From positions 35,309,527 through 35,373,526 of the forward strand of contig NC_091198.1 of NCBI RefSeq assembly GCF_040958095.1: 64,000 bases of DNA, given 5' to 3'. Below the pieces are notes generated by a model. That model saw only the letters and a list, made by a program, of their open reading frames with translations. It was not told the DNA's origin and did not search any database. The stretch's first letter is position 1, and every line of letters starts with the position of its first letter. Below, one piece after another: positions 10,201-63,659 of this stretch. A program made the position numbers and the translations under genes. Origin of the DNA: Procambarus clarkii. Lineage: Eukaryota; Arthropoda; Malacostraca; Decapoda; Cambaridae.

Positions 10201-10792
10201 GGCTTTGCCCAGGGGAGTATGCAGGTTAAGTCCACTAACAAAACCCTCCCATTCATTTTGTCTCAGTTCAGTCATTCTCTCCCTTGCCGCTGCAAGCGCG
10301 GCCTGAAACAGTTTTAACATTTGAGGAGTTCTAAGGTTCTTATATGCTTTACCTGTCTGTCTAGCAATTGATTTAAGCTCTTTCAGTTTAGCATCATCAT
10401 AGTACTGGTTGTGTCTGACCTGTTTACCAGTACTTCTTTTTGTTTGGCGTAACTCACTATTTTTGATGGCCTCATAGGTATTATTTATGAGGTCATCATA
10501 AAACTGTTGTACATTCTCAGGCTCATAATTGTTATACCAATGTTCTATGCTGTCTATAAAGAATTTTTCTTGCTCTTTCCTTACTGTTAGCCTGCGTCTA
10601 CTCAGCTTAGTGCCAGGTAGGTCAACATTAGCCACGTGTATGTTAGCTGTTATGGCTAAATGGTCAGACATAAGTCATCCATAATATCAGTCTCATGAGT
10701 TGTGTATAACAGGTTAAAGCCAATGCACCTATCTAGGACTCCTCCATATATTTGCGTTGGTTGATTCTTACTGATAATTTGAACATCATCAT
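7258..10792 (-). mobile_element. LINE-A, 3' segment (rest lies beyond the 17.5-kb insert)
   Basis: The minus-strand 3' part of an I-type LINE: most of ORF2 plus about 330 bp of 3' untranslated region ending in GGGGTGCACAATAAA near 7258. The 5' part of the same element lies at 28295-31690. The two parts fit together in order, strand and reading position, which shows that this was one element before 10793-28294 was inserted. The same 3' untranslated sequence recurs near 13070, 14030, 25400 and 25980. Confidence 0.9.
7588..10792 (-). pseudogene. LINE-A ORF2, C-terminal part: end of endonuclease, RT, RNase H
   Basis: The main open frame runs from 10671 down to 7588 (1027 codons) and begins at the SDHLAI motif that closes the endonuclease. 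The preceding codons, up to 10792, are in another frame (DDVQIISKNQPTQIYGG), so there is a frameshift near 10675. The RT shows FRPISLTSC, GFTHGKSVHN, TPQGGVLSP and YADD at about residues 458-461. RNase H follows with YTDGS (about 752), QAELVAI, ISDSLSSL and KVDALAKAA, then a CKVCGHRQGHTLEHYILDC zinc-like tail. Apart from the frameshift and the split by the big insert, RT and RNase H look complete, so this copy decayed little before it was disrupted. Confidence 0.9.
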
Positions 10793-11369
10793 ATCAACCC
10801 GTTCTCACACAAGACAGCACATATATGACTTAATGCTTAAAGTCAATATGTTGAATATGAATTAGTAAATATGTGATATATTCCCAGTTACTTTTTTTAC
10901 CAAGGCCCAAACTCTTCCTCACGTACCAATTTACGTGTCACAGTACCCGTCCGTCAACATAGATAGCAGAATATTCGTGATTGGTTCAATTATAAGGAAA
11001 ATTGTAGTTTTCAGGTCCCACATGGGTTGTGAAATTTACCTACTGTTGTCCATGCTCTTATGATATTACAGATCAGCTATATCCTATTGAAGGCTCGTAG
11101 TTTTGTTTTGAGAAATATTAGTTGTTCTTAGTAAATTATAATAAGCACTATAAATTATTACATAGAATAACAGTGCTTCACCAATCAATATTATATACCA
11201 TAGTTTGGCTTTAAACATCTTTAAAGAATGTTTTGTAGGAACGCTAACAGAAAACGATGTTACATTTAAATGTCTATGGGGTAAACTACTACAAACAGGA
11301 CGGTATTGTGTCTACTATACCAACTATAGCTAGGATGGGTATATTGTCACCTACCGCCTGTTAGGTGGG

Positions 11370-11605
11370 AAAGGGGTCCAATACCACCCACAGGATGGGT
11401 ATGAGGGTCACATCCACCCACAGGATGAGTATGGGGATCACATCCACCCACAGGAAGGGTATGGGGTCCAATACCACCCACAGGATGAGTATGGCGTCCA
11501 CTACAACCCACAGGATGGGTATGGGGCTCCAACCACCCATAGAATGGGTATGGGGCTCCAACCACAAATAAAATGGCTATAGGGTCCAATAACACCCACT
11601 GGATG
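11370..11605. repeat. Minisatellite in left arm (about 33-36 bp unit)
   Basis: Seven or so imperfect units built around ACCCACAGGATGGGTATGGG, open in several frames because of unit composition, which explains the short proline- and glycine-rich frames. The unit resembles the GGATGGGTATGGGGTGCATAATAAA end of the LINE-A 3' untranslated region and may have grown from it. Confidence 0.88.
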
Positions 11606-11629
11606 TTTAAGGCGTCCATTGCCGCGCGT

Positions 11630-12400
11630 CGAGCTCGAAAACCGCAGCATTCATCTCAGAACCATGCCTATTTCACACAGATTCCTTAATAAACGTAAGA
11701 GTTTTATATGTCACAAGAAAGATAGAAATATAAGCTTCATTCTAAATACCTTACCATGGGCATATTTAAATTTAAAGCGAAGATACGTGTACTTTTATAA
11801 TAGCCGAGCTTTAACCCCGGACAGATTGATCGACCGAGCAACTCTCTCTCAGAACAATGTTTATTTCACGTGAATTCGTTAATAAACATATATGTTTTAT
11901 ATGTCTCAAGAAAGGCAGACATATAAGCTTCACTTTAAACACTTTACCATAGACATATTTAAAGTTCTAATGAAGATACATGTATTTTAAAAATTACGGA
12001 GCTCCCACCCCGTACAGACTGAACGACAGAGCAACTCTCTCTCAGATCAATGTTTATTTCACGTAAATTCGTTAATAAACACAAATGTTTTATATGTCTT
12101 AAGCAAGATAGAAATAAGAGCTTCATTTTCAATACATTACAATAGACATATTTATAGCTCAAGTGAAGATACATATGTTTTTATAGTAGCGCTCAGTAGC
12201 TTGTCGGGCATGGAGTGCAGACGCCTACGCACTTGCCGATATATTGTATAATTATCAAAGATACGCTAATAAAGCCTAAAATCTTATATGCCTCCAGAAA
12301 GACCGAGATATGAACATTATTATGATTTCACCAAATGAAATATATCATGTTCGAGAACAAAGATATATCAATTTTAAATTAAGTTTCGACTCTTGCTCGG
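11630..12400. repeat. Degenerate satellite units (about 180-200 bp) in left arm
   Basis: At least three diverged tandem units, each with an AATAAACN...GTTTTATATGTC core, an AAGCTTCA segment, an ATAGACATATTT segment and a GCAACTCTCTCTCAGA segment. AAGCTTCA-like segments fall near 11733, 11935 and 12119. A fourth, more diverged unit follows to about 12400, and others occur at 13500-13790. No coding capacity. Confidence 0.75.
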
Positions 12401-13059
12401 GCGAGAGAGAGGGAGCGACTCTCGCCCCATCTATTGGAGATTCTGTCCACTAAAGACCCAAAGCTACTCAAACCCTCCTAGCATTATTTAAGTAATGAAG
12501 TAATATGGTATATTTACTATAATGTGGGTGCTGAATGCAGAACATGAGAAAACATATATTTACTCCAAACTAAAATAATTTCATTATGAAATAAGTAAAT
12601 AAGTAGCATCAAAGGAAGTCGACGGTCCAAGCGTCAATGTTGTGGAACGACTTATCCAAGATATATCGTTGTTTGGAAAGTGTTTGTTGGCATATCCAGT
12701 TGTCGCACTTCTCTGCACAAATTATCACAAATTTAAATTATAATGTTAACAAGTAGAATACGTATTTTTAATAAAATCTAACATAGCTAGCCAGAAAACA
12801 TTTAACATTTATTAAAAAAATATATGTTTGGAAGTTAAATCGACTTCATAGGACAATAGTGTTGTTATATATACTCGTTATTCGTTGACATGCGTTCGCT
12901 ACTTAAACTACCATGTACTGTACTTATGTAAAATCTCCCATGTCTCTTCGCTCATCTCACCGAACCCTACAGGCTTTGTGATATATTGCTTAATTAATTG
13001 AGATTCACAAATAAAGCTTATAATTGTATATGTTATAAAAAAGGCAGAGCTTATTTTAG

Positions 13060-13330
13060 TTCATTTATTATGCACCCCATACCCATCCTATGGGCGATAG
13101 TGGAGTGTTATAGAGGCGCATAATGGGCTCAGGGACTGAGCCCCACAATTCATATAGCCAAGGAAGTTATAATCTTGATAAGCTAGTTACAAAAGTCAAT
13201 GCACATTGTCACATCAACAATGGGCTCGAGACCGACCACAAGTAAAGTTTATAATTTAAGCAACTGACATATATGGAGGGCTAGTGTCACAATTGATTTG
13301 TTTATCCTACACATAACCCCCTCTCCCCCA
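13060..13330 (-). repeat. LINE-A-type 3' tail in left arm
   Basis: Starts TTATTATGCACCCCATACCC on the plus strand, which is the mirror of the GGGTATGGGGTGCATAATAA end of LINE-A. Its mirror copy lies in the right arm at about 25760-26030. It holds no coding sequence. Confidence 0.75.
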
Positions 13331-13519
13331 TCCAATGGGCAGCGGTGGATAGGTTACAATCAAGTCGTTTTTTGCGTTTTATTCAGAGATTAGATCTTAT
13401 TGGGTGAGGAAAGATATTCATATTTTAAAGAAGGCTTCTTGGCTGATGCTCTCCATTGATGGAAAATATACAACCTTTTGAAAATCAATGTTAGTTTGAT
13501 CTAGATATTGTAATTAACG

Positions 13520-14025
13520 AAAGTATTTATGTCATCTGAAAGGTAGAAATATAGGCTACATCTAAAATCCTTTGTCATAAATATAACTGAAGTGAAAACG
13601 AAGATATATGCGTTTTGATAGTTACTTGATGGCTTGCTCTGAGAGTGTGAAGCCCTGCACACCAGCCAATAAATTGTATAATTAGTTTCCATATATTTTA
13701 ATTAATCTTAAAAATCTATATGTCAGAAGAAAGGAAGATGTAGCCGTTAATGTGACAACATTTAAAAATATATATATCTTAAGTTAAATAAATAATATCA
13801 CCTTATCGCCGGTGTCCGGACACATGAAAATTACCTAGGTATCAGTATCCAGCCAGGCGGGGATCACAGGCTGCACAATACTGATAAATTATGTAATGCA
13901 CTACTTGTGGTCCATCTCGAACCCATTTATGATGTGACGACTTATAGTGAATTTTGTAACTAGCTCATCAAGATTGTAACTTGCTTAGCTAAATGATTTG
14001 TGGGGTTCGGTCCATTCATTTTCTT
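13520..14025. other. Inner flank of left arm: satellite remnants and LINE-A tail piece
   Basis: 13520-13795 continues with one or two diverged satellite units like those in the arm. About 13896-14012 is a plus-strand piece of the LINE-A 3' untranslated repeat (ACTTGTGGTCCATCTCGAAC), placed head to head with the minus-strand LINE-A fragment that begins at 14026. No gene seen. Confidence 0.6.
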
Positions 14026-15070
14026 TCTTTATTATGCACCCCATAATACACATCCCGTGGGCGGTGGTGTAAAGGATTACAGAGGCACATAATCGGTTCA
14101 GGAACTGAACCCTCTAGTTCGTTTAGCTAAGCAAATAACAATCTTTTGACGCTAGTTACAAAATTATTAATGTACACATACTTATGCATACATGTACATA
14201 TCCATACGTATACATATATACATACACATACATATTTAATCACCACCACAAATACACACATCAGTAATCTTTTGTGTCACAAGTGATTCAACAAGAGGCT
14301 CACAACAGTCACTATACAAGGTACTTTACATTTATGGTGAGTCACACAGTTACTAGTCTTGCTGCACACCCACCCAACTGGGCGGCAGCTTTACAGTCAT
14401 GTGCTCCACACCCACCCAACTGGGCGGCAGCTTTACAGTCATGTGCTCCACACCCACCCAACTGGGCGGCAGCTTTACAGTCATGTGCTCCACACCCACC
14501 CAACTGGGCGGCAGCTTTACAGTCATGTGCTCCACACCCACCCAACTGGGCGGCAGCTTTACAGTCATGTACTCCACACCCACCCAACTGGGCGGCAGCT
14601 TTACAGTCATGTGCTCCACACCCACCCAACTGGGCGGCTGCTTTACAGTCATGTGCTCCACACCCACCCAACTGGGCGGCTGCTTTACAGTCATGTGCTC
14701 GACACCCACCCAACTGGGCGGCAGCTTTACAGTCATGTGCTCAACACCCACCCAACTGGGCGGCAGCTTTACAGTCATGTGTATGCATTACCTACAGTAT
14801 TTCGCTAAGATTTCGGGCAGCACATCATTATGAATGAAGTACTTACACATTTCATGGACACTATTGATGTTGTTATCTTTAAATTCCGCGATTTTTCACA
14901 TTCCATTATATAATGACTCAAAGTATGCGAATAGTTCTGCTGACAGAGTTTACATTTAGTCAAATCTAGATCATCAGATGTTACAAACTTCCAGAGGTAC
15001 TTGTAGCCGAGCCTAAACCTAGCAGTGGTAACATCTAGAAGTCTGCTAACATTATTGGATGACCCATAGA
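14026..15070 (-). mobile_element. LINE-A fragment: 3' untranslated region and C-terminal coding end
   Basis: 14900-15070 on the minus strand matches the zinc-tail region of LINE-A ORF2 (compare 7730-7870, around a phrase for YKYLWQF-like residues). Downstream of it, towards 14026, lies a long 3' untranslated region with a 42-bp minisatellite, ending in GGGGTGCATAATAAAG. The fragment is 5' truncated and cannot code for an enzyme. Confidence 0.78.
14360..14785. repeat. 42-bp minisatellite, ten units
   Basis: About ten nearly identical 42-bp units with the core CACCCACCCAACTGGGCGGC. Forty-two is a multiple of three and the unit lacks stops in several frames, so many frames stay open on both strands and read as 14-residue repeats (for example APHPPNWAAALQSC). 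It sits within a LINE-A 3' untranslated region, so none of these frames is likely to be a protein. It is not a CRISPR array, because there are no variable spacers. Confidence 0.93.
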
Positions 15071-15505
15071 CGAGCGATTCATCAAAGTTTATACAATATT
15101 GTGAAATTGAGAGTCAGTGTAGTAACATAAATTGGTAAATAATAAATATTGTAAGTTAAGAATCTGATGCATGTGTGTGTGTTGGGGGGGGGGGGGGGGC
15201 GGGGGTTATACCCTTGGTAAGCGAGAGTGGAAAGTAACCTTAGACGTACTGTGGTCAATGTGGAGGGGGAGGGGGAGGGAGGGTGGGAGAGTCAAATCCA
15301 CCCTCCAACATCTGGACATAGTACCAGCAGCCTCCACAACACTCCATCAGCCTCCAGCTGATGCTTGTAGATGCCTCATCTAACCTCACCTATGTCACAC
15401 ATTAACCTACAGTTCCTGTGATATTTAAACTCCTCATCACAGTGGCGTCTCACCAATATAAACTGTATTGGATTTTGTCCCGAAATAGCTATATGCTGAC
15501 TGGAT
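15071..15505. other. Non-coding stretch with a G-run
   Basis: After the LINE-A fragment comes AT-rich sequence, a GTGTGT plus G17-like run near 15174-15205, purine-rich DNA to about 15290, and then unique sequence up to the TATG microsatellite. No domain-bearing frame is present. Confidence 0.6.
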
Positions 15506-15997
15506 GTGTATGTATGTATGTATGTATGTATGTATGTATGTATGTATGTATGTATGTATGCATGCATGCATGCATGTATGTATGTATGTATGTATGTATG
15601 TATGTATGTATGTATGTATGTATGTATGTATGCATGTATGTATGTATGTATGCATGTATGAATGGATAGATGTATGTATGTACGTATGCATGCATGTATG
15701 TATGCATGCATGTATGTATGCATGCTTGTATGTATGTATGTATGTATGTATGTATGTATGTATGTATGTATGTATGTATGTATGTATGTATGTATGTTTG
15801 TATGTATGTATGTATGTATGTATGTATGTATGTATGTATGTATGTATGTATGTATGTATGCATGTATGTATGTATGGATAGATGGATGGATGTATGTATG
15901 TACGCATGCATGCATGTATGTATGTATGTATGTATGTATGTATGTATGTATGTATGTATGTATGTATGTATGTATGTATGTATGTATGTATGTATGT
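15506..15997. repeat. (TATG)n microsatellite, left part
   Basis: Almost 500 bp of GTAT/ATGT units with occasional GCAT variants. It runs straight into the 5' LTR at 15998 and continues after the 3' LTR at 22015, so the LTR element was inserted into one large array. The long MYVC and YIHT reading frames here are microsatellite translations. Confidence 0.97.
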
Positions 15998-16687
15998 TGT
16001 GACGATAATCTCCTTCAAGAGATTGAGCCTGCTCTTCCCTCCAAAATTACGTCTTCACAATTATATAAAAAGACTATGGAAGAAATGTCCAACAACGACA
16101 ACAACACCAGCACCAGCAAGGCTTGCCAGGGTGAGCAGAAACGTATGCAACCAGCCACCTGTTCGAACTCCAACCACCAAACTACCCGTTGATCGCTACG
16201 GCTCCGCTGATTGGTCGCCGGTCTGGCTGCACCTGCACTCGCCCCCAATACTACCTGATGTCTGGGGTCGCCCCAACATCAGTCTTCAGAATGTTCCGTG
16301 CTTTCGTAGCCAGCACTCCTCCCAGCTAGACGTTAGCGTGTACTGAGAGAGGTGGTGGCTTTAAGCCAATATTCCAGCACCTCCCACTTAACCTTTGTGT
16401 TGCACTTCTTGTTATTTTGCCTTAACGTAACTTTTCATTGTGTCATTTAAGTATTCTTATTATTTTGATTCATTGATTTTATTATACATATTTGTTTGTC
16501 CATATTTTCATGTTTTGATTTATTTAACGTAATTAAAATTTCATTGTTAAAGTTTACTTGTGTTTTGTGTGTCTTCTCCTTACCTTACCACAGACGAAGT
16601 TCCAGTTTTTCTATTTTTTTTTATAACTATGTGACGAGGCCATACCCCTAGCCTTAAACAGCCGAACACCAACGCGTTACCGTCACA
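15998..16687 (+). repeat. 5' LTR (690 bp)
   Basis: Begins TGTGACGATAATCTCC and ends ACCGTCACA. It matches the 3' LTR at 21325-22014 at every position I compared. The second half is AT-rich, with pyrimidine runs. No clear TATA box was picked; AT-rich stretches near 16480-16560 could hold the promoter or polyadenylation site. Confidence 0.95.
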
Positions 16688-16693
16688 AGTTAT

Positions 16694-16712
16694 ATGGGGG
16701 CCTGTCCTAGGA
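16694..16712 (+). promoter_or_regulatory. Possible primer-binding region
   Basis: ATGGGGGCCTGTCCTAGG lies seven bases past the 5' LTR. Its TGGGGGC start recalls tRNA-Pro-type primer sites, but the rest departs from them and the spacing is larger than usual. A weak call. Confidence 0.3.
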
Positions 16713-17580
16713 GCCTCACTCAGGTACTGGTGCCAAGTGGTAATTTATGGTAAGCGTATTTAACTCTGTTAACGTAGCTTTACTATTTTTCATTCAATTT
16801 CATTTTTTATAAGGTGCGGTGTATTGTGCATTACGAGAGTAACATATAGTGAAGGTGAGACAACTTTGGATTACGTGGTGACTGTAGGCCTCAGTCATAC
16901 TCTTAATTGGTCATCTCTCCCTCCATGTTATTACTCGTATTTACCATCTATGTCCCTTGAATATTTCTCATTCTGACAGATCATCATATTGGTACCCTGG
17001 TACTGTGGTCTGCCCCGGGTCAAGAGTACCCAATCTTCTGCAATCTGACTGTAGGAGGACAAAGAGGGCCATAGTTCCTCTAGCTCGAACTTTAGTTGCT
17101 GAATTGGGACCTCAGCAGCAGTTCTCGTCACCAGTTGACACCTCGCACCCCTACACGTCAGTCAGAGATGATGATACATACAACGGTAGGGAATTAGCTT
17201 ATTTTTTCAGAGCACAAAAATTCGCTAATTCTGTAAGTATCATATTAAATTCAGTAGGAAAAACTTGCTTTATGTCCTATAGAGACTTGGCAAGGTATGC
17301 CTACATCCTTGGACTACCAATTTTACTTTTGAAGCATTTAACTGTTTCATTTGTTTTCGAAACTCTGTTTCATTTGTTAGTAGGATTTTCTTGCCCTTAT
17401 TCTCTTACATGAGTACCGGGTACAAGATTTCCTGCGCCCTTGATTTAATTTAATCATTTAATATCTTTCACTTAACGTTAATTGTTAAAGATCACACAGG
17501 ATAGGTACCAGTTGCCACGTTGTCCTGTTTCTGACATTTCATTATTGAACATTCGTGTACCTTTATTTGCTAATTTCACC

Positions 17581-20500
17581 ATGTTTCGTCTCCAAACTTT
17601 CCGTGCAAATCCAGCAGGTGAAATAGGGACTTTGAGTCGTGCCAAGAGGACTGAACTACAAACTCTTGCACATGAGTATCAACTAGAAGTTCCCTACCAA
17701 GCCAACAAAAATGACCTACACAACCTGTTGCTGGATTACTATTTAGAGCAAGGTAAGATAGACTCTGAAACTCATGAAACTTACTATATTGCAGATAAAA
17801 CTGATTTGGCAACGCTGAAACTCAAACTAGAGCTGGCCAAGATTGAACGTGAGCAGCAAAGGGAAGCCCTCGAACAACAAGAACGAGCTGCTGCCATACG
17901 AAGAGAGGAACAAGAACGAGAAATCACCCTCAGAGAACGTGAAGCTGCCTTGAGGAGAGAAGAACACGAACGTGGACTCGCCCTCCAGGAACGTGAGGTT
18001 GCACTACTCCAGGAGCGGGAACGAGTACAGCTTGAAACCAAACGACGCGAGTTGGAGATGCAACGCGAACATGACAAGCAACAAGCGACTCTGGCTCTAG
18101 AGTGTCGTCAACGGGAATACACGTTGGAAACTTCACACCTCGCTCAACGCCAGCAAGCTACTGCCAATCTTCCCGTCAGTTTTAATATATCACATGCAAG
18201 TAAGTTAATGCCATCCTTTGTAGAAGCAGAAGTTGATGTGTTCTTTACCACCTTTGAAACCCTTGCTAATCAACTCAGTTGGCCTGTCGACCAATGGGCC
18301 ACACTTCTCAGAGTCCATCTTACAGGTAGAGCTGCAGTCACACTCAGTACTTTGGCGTCTGAGAATGACTACTACACTCTGAAACAAGCAGTGTTGGACG
18401 CCTACCTCCTCTCTACTGAAAGTTATAGAAGGAAATTCCGTGACCACCTGAAGGCAAGTACCACTACCTTCCTCGAGTTTGCTAACACGAAACGGAGGTA
18501 TTTCATGAAATGGCTGGAAGCAGCACATGTCTCTACTTTTACAGAACTCGTCAACCTGATGCTTGTTGAAGAATTCTTGAGACGTGTGCCGCCTCCTGTC
18601 CGCCTCTACTTAGCAGATAAAGAAGAAACCGACTACCTGAAGTGTGCTAAGTCGGCTGACACTTACAGCCTCATCCACCGGCTGACACCTGAACCATCCT
18701 CCAGTAAGAAGTCGTGGTACAGTTACGAGAAGGTGAGCCCCGATCAAGCTGGTTCACAACTGTACTGCAAATATTGTAGACTCTATGGACATACCATAGA
18801 CAAGTGTGGTAAGTCTCAATACAAGGGAACCACTGACCAACAACGACCCAAACCAACTCCTCCTAAGTCCGGTAAGCCTGTGATGAATGTTGGTGTTGAT
18901 GTTAATGATCTTTCTCTTTTCAGTAACCACCTGTATACTGGAACTGTCTCTGCCAACGGTTCAAATCCGGAGGGACGTTTCAAATTGAAGATCTTGAGGG
19001 ACACAGCGGCTCTACAATCGATCATCTTGAAGTCGGCTGTGCCCAACATAGTCTACACCGGGGAAACGGTCTTCATCACTGACCTCACTGCTACTACTCC
19101 ATACCCTCTCGCCAGAGTCCACCTGGATTGTCCCTACGTGAACGGGGAAGTCCAAGTCGCCGTCAGGGAAAAGCCTTTTCCCATGCCTGGAGTGCAACTT
19201 CTCCTAGGCAACGACTTGGCAGAAGACCTGCAACCAACCAACCTGATCGTCATGGACAAACCCCAGGTGTGTAACTCTGTGCCAAGTAACCCTATTCTTG
19301 AGTATGTTCCAGCAGAGGTTCAAGAGAGTGAAGTTTCTCCTCCGGTTCTCGTGACCACCCGTGCACAAGCCGCACGTCCACAGCCAGCTGACTCTACTGC
19401 TACCGCTGTCCCTCAAGACCCTCAGAAACTACCCCCGCATCTGACCAAGTTGGAGTTCCGTAAGTTGCAGAGGGAAGATCTTACTTTAACACCATTGTTT
19501 TTCCAGGCTGAGACTCAACCCGACAGTATTCCTGGGTTCTTCCTAGAGAACGACTTGCTCTACCGCCGATATAGACCCAGTAAACTGAAGGAGGAGGACG
19601 ATTGGGCCAACACCGAACAACTTGTGATTCCCACCAGCCTGCGGCCCACTATTCTACACCTGGCCCACGGATCATTCTCCCACTACGGCTTCAACAAGAC
19701 TTACCATGGGATTCGTCAAGACTACTACTGGCCAGGTATGGTAAATAACGTCAAACAGTACGTAAAACAGTGTCATACATGTCAGATGGCAGGCAAACCG
19801 AACGTCTCCATTCCCAGAGCACCACTGATTCCCATACAGGTGCCTGCGGAACCTTTCCACAGACTCATAATAGACTGTGTTGGTCCTTTACCTCGGACCA
19901 GTTCAGGTAACGCCTACATCCTAACCATCCTGTGTCCTACCACCAGATTTCCCATAGCAGTTCCAGTGAAGAACATCACGGCTGCTACGGTTATCAAACA
20001 TCTATTGAAGATCTTCACTCAATACGGATTTCCCAGGGAGATTCAAAGTGACTGTGGCACCAACTTCACCAGTGATCTCTTCAAAAGGACACTGGAGGAG
20101 TTCAACATCAAACAGGTATTGTCCAGCCCCTATCATCCTGCTTCACAGGGTTCTCTTGAACGTAGTCATCAGACCATCAAAGCACTCTTGAAAAAGTTTT
20201 GTAGTGAAACCTCAAAGGATTGGGATAAGCAGATTGACCTAATAATGTGCATTTTCAGAAGTCTCCCCAATGAGTCCCTAGGAGTATCTCCTTATGAGAT
20301 GCTCTACGGCCGTAAGTGCCGTACTCCCCTTAAGGCTTTCAAAGACTCTCTCAGAGATGCCACCTTCAGTGAGCATCAGAATGTGCCCCAGTTTCTTCAA
20401 AACCTTCAACACATTCTAGAGAGAGTCCACCGCTTTGCTCATGATAATCTATTGAAAGCCCAGGTGAGAATGAAGACTCATTACGACCAGACCAGCAAAG

Positions 20501-21519
20501 TAAGAAAATTCAAGCCGGGAGACTTCGTCCTTGCTTATTTCCCTATCCCCGGTTCACCTTTACAAAACAGATTTTCAGGACCCTACTGCGTCAAAGAGTG
20601 CAGAAGCAACAACACATACGTCATAGAGACTCCAGATAGGCGGCGGAAGACCCAGCTGTGCCACGTCAACCTCCTGAAGCAATATAATGGTACTCCTCCC
20701 ACTGTCTTGATTAATTGTTCTACCTTCACAGAACCCTACATCCACAGTGAGACCATCCCGGCTTCTTCTCCCGAAAGCACTGACAAGGAGTCGGCGCTTT
20801 CTAATTCCAAAATCCTTAATGATCTTCCCAAATGCTTTCAGGATAATAATCGTGCTCCTATGCCCTCTTCTAATTCCACTCTCACCTCGTCAGATAAGCC
20901 CTTCATCCTCCATGTCGACGCCAATGGTACCGACGTGGGTGGTGTCGTGATGCAGCAACGAGGCGAGAAGAATACACCTGTCAGCGACTACTGCTACAAG
21001 GATCTACGGAACAATTGGCAAGGAGCTACTCTTCCTCATCCTGAAGCTTCAGCACTTCACTCCACACCTGAAAAGTGCTCGGTCCACCATCAACACGGAC
21101 CACACCACCCTACACCTCCTGCAGCACGCCCACTTCTCATCTCAACGTCTTCTACTATGGGCTTGCTACCTGCAGAAATTCAACCTGGAGACACGCTATA
21201 CCAAGAGTCTGACAACATCTTAGCCCATGATCTCTCCAGAGTTTATGAAGTAGAAGCGACTCCATCCATTACTCCACCACATAACGACGTACTTCTTCCA
21301 GAACCGCAGGCTTCGGGGGAGAGTTGTGACGATAATCTCCTTCAAGAGATTGAGCCTGCTCTTCCCTCCAAAATTACGTCTTCACAATTATATAAAAAGA
21401 CTATGGAAGAAATGTCCAACAACGACAACAACACCAGCACCAGCAAGGCTTGCCAGGGTGAGCAGAAACGTATGCAACCAGCCACCTGTTCGAACTCCAA
21501 CCACCAAACTACCCGTTGA
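17581..21519 (+). pseudogene. Gag-protease-integrase polyprotein with deleted RT
   Basis: The frame is open from 17482 to 21519; the ATG at 17581 is chosen because the conserved Gag start follows it. In order: a Gag N-terminus, a long Glu/Arg/Gln-rich coiled coil (about 17800-18150), a Gag core, a CKYCRLYGHTIDKC knuckle (about 18766-18807), a poorly conserved protease-like region (about 18960-19260), the integrase zinc domain (HLAHGSFSHYGF ... CHTC, 19657-19785), and the integrase core with Asp in IDCVGP, Asp in SDCGTN and Glu in LERSHQ. After the integrase tail (near 20700) comes a short spacer and then an RNase H start (ILHVDANGTDVGGV, about 20900). The RT that should lie between is missing. 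RNase H is frame-shuffled although the frame stays open into the 3' LTR. Confidence 0.85.
21312..21324 (+). promoter_or_regulatory. Polypurine tract
   Basis: TTCGGGGGAGAGT directly precedes the 3' LTR, as expected for the plus-strand DNA primer of an LTR retrotransposon. Confidence 0.7.
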
Positions 21520-22014
21520 TCGCTACGGCTCCGCTGATTGGTCGCCGGTCTGGCTGCACCTGCACTCGCCCCCAATACTACCTGATGTCTGGGGTCGCCC
21601 CAACATCAGTCTTCAGAATGTTCCGTGCTTTCGTAGCCAGCACTCCTCCCAGCTAGACGTTAGCGTGTACTGAGAGAGGTGGTGGCTTTAAGCCAATATT
21701 CCAGCACCTCCCACTTAACCTTTGTGTTGCACTTCTTGTTATTTTGCCTTAACGTAACTTTTCATTGTGTCATTTAAGTATTCTTATTATTTTGATTCAT
21801 TGATTTTATTATACATATTTGTTTGTCCATATTTTCATGTTTTGATTTATTTAACGTAATTAAAATTTCATTGTTAAAGTTTACTTGTGTTTTGTGTGTC
21901 TTCTCCTTACCTTACCACAGACGAAGTTCCAGTTTTTCTATTTTTTTTTATAACTATGTGACGAGGCCATACCCCTAGCCTTAAACAGCCGAACACCAAC
22001 GCGTTACCGTCACA
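21325..22014 (+). repeat. 3' LTR (690 bp)
   Basis: Same length and, as far as I compared by eye, same sequence as 15998-16687. The upstream reading frame runs about 195 bases into it before stopping. Confidence 0.95.
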
Positions 22015-22708
22015 ATGTATAGATGGATGGATGTATGTACGCATGCATGCATGTATGTATGTATTTATATATGCATGTATATACGCATGTATGTATGTAT
22101 TTATATACGCATGTATATATGCATGTATTTATATACGCATGTATGTATGTATGTATGGATGTACGCATGCATGTATGTATGTATGTATGTACGCATGTAT
22201 GTACGCATGTATGTATGTATGTATGTATGTATGTATGTATGTATGTACGTACGTATGTATGTATGTATGTATGTATGTATGTACGCATGTATGTATGTAT
22301 GTATGTATGTATGTATGTATGTATGTATGTATGTATGTATGCATGTGTGTATGTATGTATGTATGTATGTATGTATGTATGTATGTATGTATGTATGTAT
22401 GTATGGATGTACGCATGTATGTACACATGTATGTACGCATGTATGTACGCATGTATGTACGCATGTATGTACGCATGTATGTATGTATGTATATATGTAT
22501 GTATGTACGCATGCATGTATGTATGCATGTATGTATGTATGTATGTATGTATGTATGTATGTATGTATGTATGTATGTACGCATGTATGTATGTATGTAT
22601 GTATGTATGTATGTATGTATGTATGTATGCATGTGTGTATGTATGTATGTATGTATGTATGTATGTATGTATGTATGTATGTATGTATGTATGCATGTGT
22701 GTATGTAT
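22015..22708. repeat. (TATG)n microsatellite, right part
   Basis: About 690 bp of TATG units with GCATG, TATA and ACGC variants, the continuation of 15506-15997 beyond the LTR element. Variants are denser near its left end. Confidence 0.96.
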
Positions 22709-22834
22709 GTATTCCCAATCACGTTAAAGACTCCCCCTCTATCATCCAGTTTAAGAGAAAAACAACTATGTACTAAATAATCGACTCCTTGTAACTTTAA
22801 TTATGCTGACCTTCCTATCTGTATTCAGACTGAG
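22709..22834 (+). mobile_element. LINE-C fragment (C-terminal end)
   Basis: Matches the end of LINE-C ORF2, with NHVKDSPSIIQFKRK corresponding to NHVKDCTSLNQFKIK near 43075-43115. The microsatellite adjoins it on the left and a LINE-A piece on the right. Confidence 0.72.
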
Positions 22835-24222
22835 CCTACCATCATTAAAGGTGATTATAACGCTAGACATAGGAATATTGGTAATTCGCAGTTCAGTAAT
22901 CGTAACGGCAACCAACTGGTGTCACTATTAGGTAGTCACGATGATGCACAGATTGTGGGTGACCTTGAACCGACGAATATCTACGGAGGTATTCTTGGTC
23001 TATGTCTCGGTGTCAACGTCTCCCACACCGTGTGCGCCTCGTCAATAGTGCCATATATGGCGTCTGATCATCTGGCCATATTAGCCACTGTAAGCATTGG
23101 TAGCTCTATCCTCCCTGGTGGAGTGTTCAAGCGGAAGAGGCTGGCTGTGCCCATCGATCAACGAGACAATCTTGTTGCTCATGTGTCAGATTGGTGCAGT
23201 TCATCTGAGCCTTCATCAGTTGAAGATTTTAACAATGAGCTCACAGGTACTATCGAACAGTTTATAGAATCCCTTGATCCATCGTCCAGGCCACGTAACC
23301 CAAATTACACTGGTCATAGCACTTATATTTATTATAATGATTCTAAATTGCAGACACTAAAACGCACTGCCAGAATAATTGGACTAGCTTGTAGAAGGAC
23401 CCGCACTGCTGAAATGCTTCGGCTCTTTCAAGCGGTTCTGGCTAAGGCCAGGGAACGTATGGTGGAGCTGAGGCAGACAGACTGGGAAACTTTTGTCCGT
23501 GGTCTCAATTCTCACACGCCACTAAGTCGAGCATGGAAGGATATCAACAAGATCAAAGGGAAAAATGCTGCAGAGATCTCGTACCCTAATCCTCTGCACA
23601 GAGCAAATGATCTTGTTGATGCTTGGGCCATGACTTCCAGCTTTGACAGTCTTCCTCTACCCTCACAGAATGAATTAAATGATAGATATACTGATAGGGC
23701 AAGGTTCCTTGACTTCATGCGTCATCAAGAGGATGACTGTGACATGCTTTTTACTGAATACAAACTAGATTCTGCTCTACATAAAGGCAAAGCTACATCA
23801 CCCGGGGAGGATGGAGTTACTTACGGCATACTGCTTATGCTTCTGCTAGTTCCAAGGAATACCTTTCTTCAATTGTATAATATGAGCTATGTAACTGGGG
23901 AGCTTCCTAAGTCATGGACCAACAGTGTTATTATTCCCATTCCTAAACCTCACCAGCCGAGTGCTTTATGCCCAGTCTCCCTCACTAGTTGTCTCTATAA
24001 GTGTCTTGAGAAGATGGTTCTCAACCGTCTCCTTTACAAAATTAATAATATGTTGTCTCCCCAGATATATGGCTTTATGCATGGAAAGAGTGTACATCAC
24101 TGTATTACCACATTCCTCACCCTGCATACTGATAGGTCATATACCACTTTCCTAGATCTTAAGTCAGCCTTTGACATTGCTAACCCACACGTCATTATGA
24201 GAGAACTTGCTAAAATGAATGT
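22835..24222 (+). pseudogene. LINE-A relative: end of endonuclease and N-terminal RT
   Basis: Opposite in strand to the main LINE-A copy and clearly diverged from it. It begins at the GDYNARHRNIGN motif of the endonuclease, continues through PTNIYGGILG and SDHLAI, and reaches the RT fingers and palm start (PVSLTSC, HGKSVHHC, FLDLKSAFDIANPHVI). It ends at 24222 just after MRELAKMNVG, before YADD, so it cannot work. It is valuable because it shows the uninterrupted sequence at the point where the 17.5-kb insert broke the other copy. Confidence 0.88.
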
Positions 24223-24860
<638 letters not shown>

Positions 24861-24871
24861 AGCATCCCCTT

Positions 24872-24957
24872 ATGTGTTGTATGTGGGTGCTGAAGTTCAG
24901 TCTCTTGTCTATGTATAGGTGAAGGAACTTTCCATAATTGTTATTGCTAATGTATAC
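24872..24957 (-). mobile_element. LINE-C fragment
   Basis: The minus strand matches 40483-40568 of the long LINE-C copy (the region after the RT palm, around KRLNFSTHIQHI). A short truncated piece next to the CT array. Confidence 0.8.
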
Positions 24958-25264
24958 TTGTAATACTGGGTATACATCCGGTGTTCTTACCCTCGACCGC
25001 GGCGAGGGTAAGCCGCGGCCGTATGGTCTGAAACCCACAAATATTTACAATGGGGGGTGGGGGGGGATAACATTTCCTCTTCAAGCACGCGCACACAAAT
25101 GAACTATGTTACTTAACTGGAAGCACTCGTACAACATAATTTACACGATTTCTCAGGATAATTATACTTCTTACCAGCATATATACAGTATAGTACCTAG
25201 GAGGTTCTCTTCAATGATATCTAAGATAATTAAAAGAACCCAAGCAAACCACTGTGGAAATGTG
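24958..25264. other. Unassigned stretch with a GC-rich palindromic patch
   Basis: Holds ACCCTCGACCGCGGCGAGGG near 24990 followed by CCGCGG, a G-run near 25053-25068, and then AT-rich DNA. No gene seen. Confidence 0.5.
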
Positions 25265-25470
25265 CAGGACAAACATATCAATTGTGACACTAGCTCTCCA
25301 CTTATGGCATTTTCTTAATTTAGAAACTGTACTTGTGGTCGATCTCGAACCCATGTTGTTGATGTGACGATGTGTTATGAATTTTGTGGCTAGCTCCTCA
25401 AGATTGTAACTTGCTTAGATAAATAAATTGTGTGTTCAGTCCCTGAACCCATTATGTGATAAATTAACTA
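25265..25470 (+). repeat. LINE-A-type 3' tail
   Basis: Diverged copy of the 3' untranslated repeat also found at 25790-26030, sharing TGTACTTGTGGTCGATCTCG and TTGTAACTTGCTTAG. It lies just inside the right arm. Confidence 0.7.
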
Positions 25471-26679
25471 AACTAAAAACTATAGTCTGGCGACGAAGCC
25501 TGAACTGCATAATGTAAATAGGGATTAACCAGAAAAAGATATAGGTGAAGAATAACATCAGGTAACTGCGTTAATTACAATATTAGATCAAACTAACATT
25601 GATTTTCAAAAGGTTGTATATTTTCCACCAATGGAGAGCATCAGCCAAGAAGCCTTCTTTAAAATATGAATATCTTTCCTCACCCAATAAGATCTAATCT
25701 CTGAATAAAACGCAAAAAACGACTTGATTGTAACCTATCCACCGCTGCCCATTGGATGGGGGAGAGGGGGTTATGTGTAGGATAAACAAATCAATTGTGA
25801 CACTAGCCCTCCATATATGTCAGTTGCTTAAATTATAAACTGTACTTGTGGTCGGTCTCGAGCCCATTGTTGATTTGACAATATGCATTGACTTTTGTAA
25901 CTAGCTTATCAAGATTATAACTTCCTTGGCTATATGAATTGTGGGGCTCAGTCCCTGAGCCCATTATGCGCCTCTGTAACACTCCACTATCGCCCATAGG
26001 ATGGGTATGGGGTGCATAATAAATGAACTAAAATAAGCTCTGCCTTTTTGATAACATATACAATTATAAGCTTTATTTGTGAATCTCAATTAATTAAGCA
26101 ATATATCACAGAGCCTGTAGGGTTCGGTGAGATGAGCGAAGAGACATGGGAGATTTCACATAAGTACAGTACATGGTAGTTTAAGTAGTGAACGCATGTC
26201 AACGAATAACGAGTATATATAACAACACTATTGTCCTATGAAGTCGATTTAACTTCCAAACATATATTTTTTTAATAAATGTTAAATGTTTTCTGGCTAG
26301 CTATGTTAGATTTTATTAAAAATACGTATTCTACTTGTTAACATTATAATTTAAATTTGTGATAATTTGTGCAGAGAAGTGCGACAACTGGATATGCCAA
26401 CAAACACTTTCCAAACAACGATATATCTTGGATAAGTCGTTCCACAACATTGACGCTTGGACCGTCGACTTCCTTTGATGCTACTTATTTACTTATTTCA
26501 TAATGAAATTATATTAGTTTGGAGTAAATATATGTTTTCTCATGTTCTGCATTCAGCACCCACATTATAGTAAATATACCATATTACTTCATTACTTAAA
26601 TAATGCTAGGAGGGTTTGAGTAGCTTTGGGTCTTTAGTGGACAGAATCTCCAATAGATGGGGCGAGAGTCGCTCCCTCT

Positions 26680-27440
26680 CTCTCGCCCGAGCAAGAGTCG
26701 AAACTTAATTTAAAATTGATATATCTTTGTTCTCGAACATGATATATTTCATTTGGTGAAATCATAATAATGTTCATATCTCGGTCTTTCTGGAGGCATA
26801 TAAGATTTTAGGCTTTATTAGCGTATCTTTGATAATTATACAATATATCGGCAAGTGCGTAGGCGTCTGCACTCCATGCCCGACAAGCTACTGAGCGCTA
26901 CTATAAAAACATATGTATCTTCACTTGAGCTATAAATATGTCTATTGTAATGTATTGAAAATGAAGCTCTTATTTCTATCTTGCTTAAGACATATAAAAC
27001 ATTTGTGTTTATTAACGAATTTACGTGAAATAAACATTGATCTGAGAGAGAGTTGCTCTGTCGTTCAGTCTGTACGGGGTGGGAGCTCCGTAATTTTTAA
27101 AATACATGTATCTTCATTAGAACTTTAAATATGTCTATGGTAAAGTGTTTAAAGTGAAGCTTATATGTCTGCCTTTCTTGAGACATATAAAACATATATG
27201 TTTATTAACGAATTCACGTGAAATAAACATTGTTCTGAGAGAGAGTTGCTCGGTCGATCAATCTGTCCGGGGTTAAAGCTCGGCTATTATAAAAGTACAC
27301 GTATCTTCGCTTTAAATTTAAATATGCCCATGGTAAGGTATTTAGAATGAAGCTTATATTTCTATCTTTCTTGTGACATATAAAACTCTTACGTTTATTA
27401 AGGAATCTGTGTGAAATAGGCATGGTTCTGAGATGAATGC
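26680..27440. repeat. Degenerate satellite units in right arm
   Basis: Mirror of 11630-12400: tandem, diverged units of about 180-200 bp carrying GCATAT or ACATATAAAAC, TTATTAACGAATT and TCTGAGAGAGAGTTGC segments. Confidence 0.75.
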
Positions 27441-27481
27441 TGCGGTTTTCGAGCTCGACGCGCGGCAATGGACGCCTTAAA

Positions 27482-27718
27482 CATCCAGTGGGTGTTATTG
27501 GACCCTATACCCATTTTATTTGTGGTTGGAGCCCCATACCCATTCTATGGGTGGTTGGAGCCCCATACCCATCCTGTGGGTTGTAGTGGACGCCATACTC
27601 ATCCTGTGGGTGGTATTGGACCCCATACCCTTCCTGTGGGTGGATGTGATCCCCATACTCATCCTGTGGGTGGATGTGACCCTCATACCCATCCTGTGGG
27701 TGGTATTGGACCCCTTTC
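27482..27718. repeat. Minisatellite in right arm
   Basis: Mirror of 11370-11605, with units around ACCCATCCTGTGGGTGGTAT. Same unit order as the other arm, with one base difference noticed. Confidence 0.88.
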
Positions 27719-28294
27719 CCACCTAACAGGCGGTAGGTGACAATATACCCATCCTAGCTATAGTTGGTATAGTAGACACAATACCGTCCTGTTTGTAGTA
27801 GTTTACCCCATAGACATTTAAATGTAACATCGTTTTCTGTTAGCGTTCCTACAAAACATTCTTTAAAGATGTTTAAAGCCAAACTATGGTATATAATATT
27901 GATTGGTGAAGCACTGTTATTCTATGTAATAATTTATAGTGCTTATTATAATTTACTAAGAACAACTAATATTTCTCAAAACAAAACTACGAGCCTTCAA
28001 TAGGATATAGCTGATCTGTAATATTATAAGAGCATGGACAACAGTAGGTAAATTTCACAACCCATGTGGGACCTGAAAACTACAATTTTCCTTATAATTG
28101 AACCAATCACGAATATTCTGCTATCTATGTTGACGGACGGGTACTGTGACACGTAAATTGGTACGTGAGGAAGAGTTTGGGCCTTGGTAAAAAAAGTAAC
28201 TGGGAATATATCACATATTTACTAATTCATATTCAACATATTGACTTTAAGCATTAAGTCATTTATGTGCTGTCTTGTGTGAGAACGGGTTGAT

Positions 28295-28784
28295 CGAGAA
28301 GTGCCAACAATCTTCTCCCGTTGGTGTTTGTAAGTTGATCCCCTAATTGTTTGTGTTTAGCATTTAAATCCCCAATTAATATTGTAGAATCAGTATGTGC
28401 AAAACTAGGTAGGTCAGTATACTGGAAGAGGCCAGTAGGTGCAGAGGCATTCAAAACATTAAGTGTAGAGTAACCAACGTGTACCCGGATACCATGATAT
28501 TGAAACCCCTCTCGTTGTTGGGCGGGGAGTGGCTCATGCGGCAGGGATTTTTTAACATACATAAGACACGTATTTTTTGATCTGGGATTATAACACTGAT
28601 AACTAGGCAAATTCTGCGGGGTTTTACCTGCGGGAGTTAGGGTTTCCTGGAGGCAGACAATATCTATGTCTTCAGTCATAACCTTATGATGGAGATCTGA
28701 ATACCGTTTTCTAAGAGAAGCAATATTCCAACTGAGTATCTTGATGACACTGTACTTGTTCTTATGAGATTCAGAGGCCGCCAT
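28295..28784 (-). pseudogene. LINE-A ORF2, N-terminal part: endonuclease
   Basis: Begins with ATG at 28784, overlapping the ORF1 stop by 14 bases, as is common in LINEs. It encodes an APE-type endonuclease start: SWNIASLRKR, then CLQET with the catalytic Glu, then GDLNAKHKQLGD with the Asp/Asn pair. At 28295, after LLALLDQ, the frame runs into the right arm and stops at 28263. The missing half (DDVQII through SDHLAI) is at 10675-10792. The relative at 22835 has the same number of residues across the join (SLLGSHDDAQI versus ALLDQ plus DDVQII). Confidence 0.9.
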
Positions 28785-29805
28785 TGTTCTTTTGTACTTT
28801 ATCAGTCTGCAGTTTCAGGAAAGCAAGTATGTCTACATACCGGTTGTAGTGCTTTATTACAGCTTCTTTTTCCTCTTCAGTCAGCACATCACCTGTCACC
28901 ATTTCTTTAAATGTGTCACGGCGGAACCATCTGGGATGTGGCGTGCGCGGCCCGAGGCGGGCATCCACGTCCAGTTGAACTTCGTCACTATCACTACAAG
29001 CGTCACTGGTTTCACTTTGTTCTTTACCACAATCACTTTCAACATTTCCACTACTATTTTCCTTCAAACAGAGTTTATTAGACCCGGTATCAACATCTTG
29101 ATCGTCATCACCATTAAAGTTCTCACCCTCAGTGTCATTACGTTCATCATCAGGATCAGTTGCGCCATAATACTCATCGACAGCACTATGCGTTTCTACG
29201 TGGAATAGTTTACCTCTGTTCATAGCGCACTGTGTTGATGAGGCTGGGGTGTGGGGAGCCGTGGTGGGAGAGCCCAGCTGGTGTGAGGGCTGGGACACCC
29301 CCTGCTGGGGTCTACCCTGGGGTACTGGCCGCATGGGAGCACATGGTGGTACCCCAGGTTGGTGTGGCCTGCACTCAGTTATTAATACTCTCACAGTTTC
29401 CTGAAGAGTGGTTATCATCGTCTTTTGGTGCATGAATTCCTTATTTTGTTCGGTTATCTGCTTGGTCAGGTTTTCCACAATTTTGTTTTGTTTTTCTACT
29501 GTATGCATAAGCTCACTAATTTTCTGTGCCTGATCCAGGCCCCCCGACCAACATGAATTGGTAGGGCCTACAACTGTGTCACTCGAGCTACTAGCCGTGG
29601 CGTTGGAGTGGTTGGGTAAGGAAGGGGAGTGTGACGGAGTGACCGGTGGGGGCACAGCAGATGAGCCAGGGTGGTTACTGGCGCCCCCAGCTGTTGTACC
29701 CCTGGCAGCCCGTCTCGGCGGGAGTGAGGTACAGTCCCCATGCCAGGCGGGAACTCCCTCCATGTGACAGTTTGCACACCTCAGTTTTAGTGCACCACCC
29801 TTTTC
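28771..29805 (-). pseudogene. LINE-A ORF1, C-terminal part
   Basis: Open frame ending at 28771. It starts with the last Cys/His knuckle (CANCHMEGVPAWHGDC), then a Pro/Ser/Thr-rich linker, a predicted coiled coil near VEKQNKIVENLTKQITEQ, and an acidic C-terminal third. The first two knuckles are in the other part at 30717-31481, beyond an insert. Joining the parts at the insert's target duplication would leave the frame off by one, so there is also a frameshift or the repeat boundary is not exact. Confidence 0.82.
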
Positions 29806-51879: not shown

Positions 51880-52590
51880 AACAAGACACCTGGTGTTGTT
51901 CTTCAGCTATATCTTGCTCTGGTTAGGCCCCATTTAGATTATGTAGTTCAGTTTTCGTTGCCGTACTATAGAATGGATATAAATTCACTTGAACGTGTCC
52001 AGCATAGGATGACAAAGTTAATTCCCCAAATTAGAAATCTTCCATATGAAGAAAGATTAACAAAGCTTAAGTTGCATTCACTGGAAAGTCGAAGAGTTTT
52101 TAAGATACAAAAATCGATAGGGAAATTAACACGGAAGAAGACTCACTATCTCTTCAAGTTGATCTAAGTAGGGTTTTGAAATAGTCAAAAGATTGGCAGA
52201 TACAGTTTACTGCTGATAAATGTAAAGTTCTGAGGCTAGGTAATGATGATAAAGTTACAAGATACGAGCTAGATGGTGTTGAGATTGCGAAGTCAGATTG
52301 CGAAAGGGATCTGGGTGCTATGTTTAGAAGGAATTTAAAACCAAAGGATCAATGCATGAATGTTCGAAATAAGGCAAATAAGACACTGGGATTTATTAAT
52401 CGAAGTGTTAGTAACAAGACACCTGGTGTTGTTCTTCAGATATATCTTGCTCTGGTTAGACCCCCATTTAGATTATGCAGTTCAGTTTTGGTCATCGTAT
52501 AGAATGGATATAAATTCACTTGGACGTGTCCAGCGTAGGATGACTATGTTAATTCCCCAAATTAGAAATCTTTCATGTGAAGAAAGATTG
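51880..52590 (+). pseudogene. Two shuffled LINE-F fragments
   Basis: 51880-52108 encodes SNKTPGVVLQLYLALVRPHL and YYRMDINSLERVQHRMTKL. 52109-52590 goes back to an earlier part (the INTEEDSLSLQVDL region) and repeats the same end. So two partial copies, or one copy with a backward jump, lie in tandem. Many stops. Confidence 0.82.
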
Positions 52591-52604
52591 TAGTAACATT
52601 ATGA

Positions 52605-53460
52605 TAGCAATAATGCAAGGATTAGTGAAGGAATTGATGAATCTAATTGGAACTCTGAGAGCAGAGATAGATTCCCTACGAGAGGAGGTACGACAGCTGA
52701 AACATTGGGAAGAAACGAAGGAGGAGACCAATATTAACAAGACCTCGTCGTGAAGGACAGGGGTCTTAAGAAGACCTTGACAAGGCCGCCTACAGACGCC
52801 CTAAGGACTGCAAATTCATTTGCCGTGTTGGAGGACGAGTGCTGTGGTGAGCCTGCAATTCACTCGGAACGGAAATCAACGAGGAGCGGCGGAGCGCGGG
52901 CCCCTTAGGGTGCTCAGAAAGTTAAGGAGGTACCGAAGCGAATTTTGGTTGTGGGAGATTCCCAGGTGAGGTATTTAGACAGGACGTTTTGTGCCAGAGA
53001 TAGGGGAAACAGGTTAATGGTCTGCTATCTGGGAGCTGGAATTGGAGATATTGTTGACAACATGAAAGATATTATGACGGGAAATGGGAACAAACCCATT
53101 ATTTGTATTAGTGCAGGGGGTAATGATGTTGGACGAGTTAGGAGTGAGGAACTAATAAAGAAATTTAACAAAGCCATAGAATTAGTTAGGAACAAGGGAG
53201 GAATCCTGATCATATGTGGCACTCTTCCAAGAAAGAGCGTTGGGAACAAATGGTTGTCGAGGGCACTTGGTATCAATTGCCGGCTGGAAAGATATTGCAA
53301 ATCAAATGCAATATCTTTCATAGACAACTGGGAACACTTCTATGGAAGAAATTAAATGTATGCTCGTGATGGGGTGCATCTATCGAGGGCTGGGGTTGTT
53401 GCTGTTGCGAACTCGTTGGAAGAAGTGGTTAGAGGTGTTTGTTTGGGTTTAAACTGTTAG
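52605..53460 (+). pseudogene. LINE-F ORF1 (SGNH esterase-type), broken
   Basis: The N-terminal coiled-coil part is frame-damaged (near 52752 and 52907). The clean frame 52945-53355 shows VVGDSQVRYLDR, GAGIGDI and GGNDVGR, blocks of an SGNH/GDSL hydrolase. A TAA at 53353-53355 stops it just before MYARDGVHLSRAG, the block with the catalytic Asp and His. CR1 ORF1 proteins are known to carry such a domain. Confidence 0.85.
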
Positions 53461-56338: not shown

Positions 56339-56553
56339 CTTATCTCTTATCTCTCTCATCTCATTTTTCTCTTGTAATGTATCTTTATCATTTATCAATT
56401 CTGATTGAAATTACCTACTTAAAATTATCTGCTAGATTAAGGACCTGCCCGAAACGCTGCGCGTACTAGTGGCTTTACAAGAATGTAAATTATGTACTAT
56501 CCAATGTATTCTCACAAACCCAATGTACCTTCTTGCATATATATAAATAAATA
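56339..56553 (+). mobile_element. LINE-C 3' tail between two LINE-F copies
   Basis: Contains the GACCTGCCCGAAACGCTGCG box and ends in ATAAATAAATAATAA. It replaces the 3' end of LINE-F copy 3 and the first codons of copy 4. Confidence 0.87.
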
Positions 56554-56558
56554 ATAAT

Positions 56559-60337: not shown

Positions 60338-60385
60338 AATAGGAGCTGCCTCGTATGGGCCAATAGGCCTTCTGCAGTTACCTTT

Positions 60386-60409
60386 GTTCTTATGTTCTTA
60401 TGTTCTTAT
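60386..60409 (+). repeat. Three GTTCTTAT units ending LINE-F copy 4
   Basis: Perfect 8-bp tandem repeats at the 3' terminus. Short 3' repeats of this kind take the place of a poly-A tail in CR1-type LINEs and are used in target-primed reverse transcription. Confidence 0.93.
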
Positions 60410-60410
60410 A

Positions 60411-63652: not shown

Positions 63653-63659
63653 ACCATCG

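Follow-up and report, generated by a model that had tools for sequence, protein, structure and literature searches.

The window analysed here, a stretch of DNA of 64,000 nucleotides, contains a LINE whose endonuclease is interrupted by a 17.5-kb segment with long inverted arms, and the question raised by this locus is whether that segment is a mobile element of a known kind, a mobile segment of a new type or a product of rearrangement or assembly. Our analyses indicate that it is very probably one copy of an abundant, foldback-like family of non-autonomous, cut-and-paste terminal inverted repeat (TIR) DNA transposons.

The inserted segment and its LINE target

The features on which this reading is based are as follows.

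10795..13519, + strand: left terminal inverted repeat (arm), true end CAACCCGTTCTCACAC
11373..11561, + strand: 30/90-bp tandem repeats in the left arm, mirrored at 27482-27755
11654..12181, + strand: 193-bp tandem repeat, 2.7 copies, in the left arm, mirrored at 26902-27433
14360..14781, + strand: 42-bp minisatellite, 10 copies, in the element body; sister copies have it too
15507..15995, no strand: TGTA microsatellite in the element body, its left half; the LTR element interrupts it
15996..22021, + strand: LTR retroelement, with LTRs at 15996-16694 and 21323-22021 that are 99.7% identical
22022..22712, no strand: TGTA-type microsatellite, right half
22781..24265, + strand: captured LINE EN-RT fragment, a 495-aa open frame in the window
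24474..24858, no strand: CT microsatellite in the element body
25569..28292, - strand: right terminal inverted repeat (99.5% identity with the left arm)
28293..28793, - strand: host LINE-A, N-terminal half of the endonuclease (insertion target), 5' boundary approximate
7591..10794, - strand: host LINE-A, rest of the endonuclease, RT and RNase H, with one frameshift after the junction

The arms had been estimated in a first-pass annotation at about 2727 bp and about 99% identity, in agreement with our alignment of 10793-13519 (+) to 28294-25569 (-), in which they are 2727 and 2726 bp long and 99.49% identical, with 13 substitutions and one 1-bp gap. The third base of the query was the start of 29 of 40 full-length arm matches, so the ends were trimmed to 10795 and 28292, giving CAACCC...GGGTTG (10795-28292) as the true termini of the window copy; in other copies these hexamers are directly adjoined by target duplications. 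The sequences of other copies ruled out ATCAACCC as a true end with a 2-bp target site duplication (TSD).

Interruption of the LINE endonuclease was confirmed by alignments that span the joined flanks in all 40 scored genome copies (448 first-look candidates). The empty site was identical in seven of seven fetched LINE copies, all reading CTTCTCGATGCATATGATGATG, where the window has CTTCTCGAT, the element and then ATATGATGATG. Comparison with these seven sites thus revealed that the window insertion has no target duplication and that 2 bp of the target (GC) are missing. An origin of ATCAAC from the LINE target, considered at first, was discarded once the empty sites were compared. The uninterrupted LINE reads LL-DAY-DD, and in the string LLALLDQ, with which the first half of the endonuclease had been said to stop, the D is from the LINE and the Q from the element; the residue spacing described as equal to that of an uninterrupted relative is therefore slightly off.

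The earlier annotation missed that approximately 6 kb of the 17.5-kb insert is an LTR retroelement, whose nesting at 15996-22021 inflates the size of the segment. Three sister copies were aligned to the window element; they keep its body but all lack the retroelement at this place, which entered the window copy later. Also missed was that the LINE at 22.8 kb, regarded as the uninterrupted relative, is cargo carried by the family. Among nine copies with an almost complete LINE fragment, the frame is open in four and broken in five; the other 10 of 19 sequences, holding part of it or none (some pieces stop short and some hold N), were excluded from this count. Pieces of a PHD-finger protein in the 15-kb class of copies were treated as cargo, and a stretch beside them, lacking Pfam support, presumably resembles a ULP-type protease.

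Copies of the family elsewhere in the genome

The first-pass annotation would have been refuted had the arm ends been found next to varied flanks nowhere else, which is clearly not the case, as both the ends and paired-arm loci proved to be present. The 28-bp terminus had 2232 exact occurrences in the window's 4.03-Gb genome, compared with 0 for the reversed control. Among 99 of 100 listed sites (those on C1 and C2, with one site on C3 excluded), neighbouring termini no more than 40 kb apart formed 29 pairs facing inward, 3 facing outward and 9 on the same strand, and extrapolation from the 29 inward pairs suggests that the genome has ~650 elements with both exact ends, all of them bearing long inverted arms. 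The TIRs range from 2.47 to 3.05 kb in length across nine copies. Reading both ends of 18 copies revealed direct target duplications in 15, with a length of 7 bp in nine and of 8 bp in six, whereas the window copy, C81 and a 189-bp pair had none; of 20 further loci chosen for this sample 10 were fetched, three of which, in addition to C318, gave one end only. The family therefore has constant inverted termini, many copies, differing flanks and a short direct target duplication, as expected of TIR DNA transposons, together with the long TIRs bearing tandem sub-repeats and the middles variable between copies that are typical of foldback-like elements. These results uphold the proposal of a giant non-autonomous foldback element. 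The other suggestion, of a new type of mobile segment, is not needed because the long repetitive TIRs, the 7-8 bp TSDs and the missing coding capacity are in keeping with Galileo and similar foldback-like elements.

Two alternatives would remove the need for a mobile unit at this locus. An origin of the segment by inverted duplication or ectopic recombination at the LINE is very improbable, although the absent TSD and the 2-bp target deletion would fit it, and matching TSDs are also missing in chimeric copies of Galileo described in the excerpts of PMC3573991; the two flanks adjoin each other in a single LINE and keep its order, and the window termini are exactly those of mobile copies. That one locus was duplicated by the assembler to give both arms is scarcely credible: assemblers can struggle with near-identical arms, and some sister copies have N runs, but many paired copies with distinct flanks and matching TSDs exist elsewhere, the two window arms have 14 differences and the LINE flanks join into an intact empty site.

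The family is probably moved by a transposase encoded at another locus, which would recognise the terminus, excise the unit and insert it at a staggered cut. The window copy perhaps came to lie in the LINE endonuclease gene when an excised element was end-joined to a break, and it took the LTR retroelement afterwards. Inversions and fragile sites can result from long inverted arms of this kind, as they do from Galileo in flies.

Similarity of the arms within elements

Private mutations occur in both arms of single elements. In an alignment limited to the outermost 2470 bases per arm (2150 of 2784 columns, those with any gap or N being dropped, and C28 excluded), the arms of nine elements had a mean of 4.2 differences within an element versus 9.6 between elements, and none of 20000 random re-pairings of arms gave a value as low as that observed. 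The private mutations common to both arms of an element argue that its arms are homogenised; against this, eight of the 18 arms were closer to an arm of another element than to their own partner. The arms may be kept alike by gene conversion between them or by copying in the course of repair. A less probable form of this, which we regard as unlikely, is that every round of movement rebuilds the arms, one being copied onto the other, for instance by an excised or replicating long hairpin that templates itself. Such rebuilding would explain the private mutations in both arms, which would then be identical because of how the element transposes and not because gene conversion occasionally occurs. 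As the private variants can be counted, the family is suited to a clean study of arm homogenisation.

Candidate transposases and comparable systems

No transposase was recognised inside the window element, either by Pfam in the two frames of at least 200 aa that are not simple repeats or by eye in shorter frames, consistent with the first-pass annotation. A copy with a coding middle was also sought, but no transposase was recognised, mostly by eye, in a 15.15-kb copy whose middle was read almost completely, in the parts read of the 7.1, 7.6, 13.2, 13.6 and 14.8-kb copies or in the parts read of a 33-kb copy; Pfam was applied to four L049 frames and one L054 frame. The 33-kb copy has N runs and a 2.17-kb direct repeat resembling an LTR pair, and by the reading of its frames holds a BEL/Pao-like retroelement. 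Elements longer than 15 kb are numerous, and since only parts of the 33-kb one were read, a transposase-coding copy could lie among them. The parts and domain searches covered contained no autonomous partner with the element's terminus.

The terminal 15-16 bp recur in other elements, one of them small and palindromic. Such co-terminal ends were found at 112 sites (control 0) and, in a second search, at 164 sites (control 2), some of which are point variants of the family's own terminus. The 370-bp palindromic element with this terminus has a 7-bp TSD. Because the terminus is shared, a common transposase is likely, and the co-terminal elements would be moved by the same enzyme; the small co-terminal elements are a sharp handle for tracing it.

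The identity of that enzyme can be suggested only tentatively. A P-superfamily transposase, with the family as a crustacean analogue of Galileo, is a reasonable possibility but falls short of being probable. The family's CA...TG ends, which fit P elements, are counted in its favour. So are the 7- or 8-bp TSDs, as in Galileo of D. willistoni (excerpts of PMC4168063), and the long TIRs with tandem repeats, which in Galileo are longest in non-autonomous copies (excerpts of PMC3573991). Against it, 8-bp TSDs form six of 15 here, compared with three beside 118 7-bp Galileo copies in D. willistoni (PMC4168063, in part). In addition, no GTANTAC-like target occurred among 16 TSDs and palindromy was not above that of shuffles (2431/5000 for the 7-bp set and 714/5000 for the 8-bp set), both in a small sample, and the P-superfamily domains PF21788 and PF21787 had no match in the genome, although, with the control genomes equally silent, this does not establish their absence.

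A hAT transposase is a more doubtful candidate. Its domains are plentiful, with 149 matches among 150 scored (16236 first-look candidates), none tied to the terminus, and hAT TSDs are usually 8 bp, whereas 7 bp is the commoner length here (9/15, versus 6/15 of 8 bp) and the terminus is without the usual hAT form. The seven rare co-terminal ends examined had none of the 149 listed matches at a distance of 200 kb or less, a weak argument because those listed are drawn from thousands of candidates.

That a MULE transposase moves the family, as a Mutator/FB-type foldback, is improbable, more so than hAT. The FB-like build and a FLYWCH-MULE open frame at C59 speak for it, but the TSDs of MULE foldbacks are mostly 9 bp, as in Tm1 (8-10 bp; PMC3169594, in part) and Tetris (8-10 bp; PMC4079207, in part), whereas none of the 15 here is 9 bp or exceeds 8 bp. 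The MULE domain had two matches of 102 scored, at C59 and C20, neither tied to an element terminus, and no link was found between the C59 MULE and the arms.

The best reading is that the family probably works like Galileo/FB. According to the excerpts available, Galileo, of the P superfamily in Drosophila, shares with it long foldback-like TIRs with internal tandem repeats (PMC3573991), 7- or 8-bp TSDs (PMC4168063) and many copies without transposase, some without matching TSDs (PMC3573991, PMC4168063). The arms are ~2.7 kb here versus 0.3-1.26 kb in Galileo, and, unlike Galileo, the family has LINE cargo in its body, with neither a GTANTAC target nor a P transposase found. Tm1 and Tetris, as described in the same partial sources, likewise have composite, internally repetitive TIRs, variable middles and non-autonomous copies, and differ in TSD length and in the absence here of a linked MULE. 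Tetris shares terminal portions with the MITE DAIBAM (PMC4079207, in part), as the family's arms do with the 370-bp palindromic element.

Among the titles listed, none describes such a foldback family from crayfish, decapods or crustaceans, and none is mentioned in the excerpts of a decapod repeat survey (PMC10454600) or of a giant-transposon review (PMC6431247). The string CAACCCGTTCTC led to a paper whose title concerns a sodium channel. Pack-TIRs, in the portions of PMC8277862 available, resemble the family as TIR elements that have captured and multiplied foreign sequence; in contrast to theirs, the cargo here is a retroelement fragment, and the copies of the family far exceed the multicopy case quoted there.

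Insertion of an inverted-arm element into a LINE

The segment at 10795-28292 is well supported as a member of a new family of non-autonomous foldback-like transposons with terminal inverted repeats (TIRs), a known kind of element, and the first-pass annotation was right in its main guess of a giant non-autonomous foldback element. This foldback-like family stands out for the length of its arms, the number of its copies, the cargo it carries and the way in which paired arms evolve. Self-comparison of the window gave 99.49% identity over 2727 bp between the inverted arms (10793-13519 versus 28294-25569), the differences being 13 substitutions and a gap of one base, in agreement with the arms of about 2727 bp and about 99% identity first reported. 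The arm-bounded segment sits within a minus-strand LINE (the host LINE), and the earlier claim that this LINE is split inside its endonuclease was borne out by the positions of the two halves and by the finding of empty sites.

Right of 28292, minus strand: host LINE endonuclease, N-terminal half
7591-10794, minus strand: remaining host LINE endonuclease, reverse transcriptase (RT) and RNase H
15996-22021: LTR element nested in the segment, LTRs 99.7% identical

Of the 120 related proteins listed, 15 have an alignment block on each side of the break, the gap between the blocks being three residues in 13 and two in 2. All ten host-LINE relatives with an organism name, among the 120 listed of 180, are from crabs, shrimps, prawns or mantis shrimps, which are malacostracan crustaceans; this suggests that the window comes from a malacostracan, perhaps a decapod. 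The joined LINE flanks of the window had a match in all 40 scored genome copies, mostly of 443 bp against the 440-base query, and seven fetched LINE copies, unoccupied at the insertion point and identical there, hold GC between the flanks, two bases that are absent from the window. The window segment is therefore an insertion into the LINE, without a target-site duplication (TSD) and with a 2-bp loss. Such a junction would be produced if an excised element were end-joined into a break, and one more 1-base flank difference elsewhere would be consistent with the reading-frame shift of the host LINE.

Family size, termini and target-site duplications

A search of the genome (4.03 Gb, 2308 contigs) with a 608-bp arm end, in which the best 40 of 2061 first-look candidates were scored, returned 41 matches, 40 of which cover almost the full length of the query with an identity of 99-100%. 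Since 29 of those 40 start at query base 3, the true terminus is CAACCC...GGGTTG. Exact matches to the 28-bp terminus number 1113 in forward and 1119 in reverse orientation (reversed control, 0). Among 99 listed sites on contigs C1 and C2, neighbouring termini no more than 40 kb apart comprised 29 inward, 3 outward and 9 same-strand pairs, and the inward pairs were spaced 189 bp to 33 kb apart (median 15.2 kb; 23 of 29 within 10-20.1 kb). Seven same-orientation termini at C2:62708413-62743828, with six spacings of 5.85-6.12 kb, form a tandem array holding the element end.

Both ends were read in 18 copies, the window copy among them, and in 15 of these exact direct repeats lie directly at the termini (nine of 7 bp, six of 8 bp); four further copies had only one end visible. 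The three without a TSD are the window copy, the copy on contig C81, which adjoins another arm, and the 189-bp C1 pair, which is flanked by arm sequence. When these 15 copies are taken together with a small element, A lies to the right of the TSD in 12 of 16, and TSD palindromy was not above that of shuffled sequences. Copies C81 and C8 terminate at points about 12 bp from each other in seemingly the same repeat (fetched loci L010 1151-1180 and L037 301-322).

Anatomy, cargo and joint evolution of the arms

Eight sister copies measure 10.6-11.7 kb from end to end, and their TIRs, together with those of the window copy, 2.47-3.05 kb (three copies contain N). Seven further copies are of 10.3-14.0 kb and one is of 33.2 kb; the measured copies were drawn from the best arm matches and may be atypical, the listed C1 and C2 pairs often being longer. 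Alignment of three sister copies to the window segment showed that body blocks, including a 42-bp minisatellite and a captured LINE fragment, recur in them at 94-98% identity, and that all three lack the nested LTR element. That element has one frame, of 1345 aa, with matches to SCAN and integrase and, faintly, to RNase H; no reverse transcriptase domain was recognised in it.

The captured LINE fragment has a 495-aa open frame in four of nine near-complete copies (window, C81, C76 and C34) and is broken in the other five (C79, C73, L052, L053 and L054), a mixture that would be expected of cargo. Possibly, the short class is a deletion derivative of the longer one, because in three longer copies (13.6-15.2 kb) the captured LINE continues beyond its short-class stop point. 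Nearly the entire middle of a 15.15-kb sister was read, revealing a LINE RT piece, a frame without a Pfam match that we read as CR1-like, and a PHD finger; no transposase was recognised across it. The 15-kb class carries a stretch that resembles a ULP-type protease, without Pfam support, and PHD fingers, which are located as follows.

L049 2007-2381, minus strand: PHD finger
L054 4649-4951, plus strand: PHD finger

Over 2150 gap-free columns in nine elements, arms differed on average at 4.2 sites within an element versus 9.6 between elements, and none of 20000 random re-pairings of arms was as low as the observed within-element difference. Element-private variants are often present in both of an element's own arms (four sites in C33, five in C81). 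This pattern calls for conversion or copying between arms, despite eight of the 18 arms, including both window arms, being closer to an arm of another element than to their own partner.

Co-terminal elements and candidate enzymes

Ends sharing 16 bp with the terminus before diverging at eight bases were found at 112 genome sites (control, 0), and ends sharing 15 bp but not base 16 at 164 (control, 2); the latter, in the 85 with bases shown, include several separate families as well as some point variants of the large element's terminus. A 370-bp palindromic element (L057 41-410) has 16 terminal bases in common with the large element and a 7-bp TSD, GCATAAG. Because ends and TSD length are shared, this one fully read small element points to a transposase that may serve both large and small elements.

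Galileo, a P-superfamily foldback-like element of Drosophila with TSDs of 7 or 8 bp, is the closest fit in TSD length (PMC4168063), whereas MULE foldbacks fit worst (PMC3169594, PMC4079207). P domains had no match in the genome, the control genomes being equally silent. MULE and hAT domains gave 2 matches of 102 and 149 of 150 scored candidates, respectively, none tied to an element terminus, with hAT proximity checked near seven rare ends. One of the two MULE matches in 4 Gb is a long FLYWCH and MULE open frame at C59:24170577-24170864.

Elsewhere in the window, 52588-63819 holds several near-identical LINE-bearing repeats, direct and inverted, of about 89-98% identity, and imperfect palindromes occur at 529-781 (253 bp, 90%) and 60415-60780 (about 367 bp, 84%).
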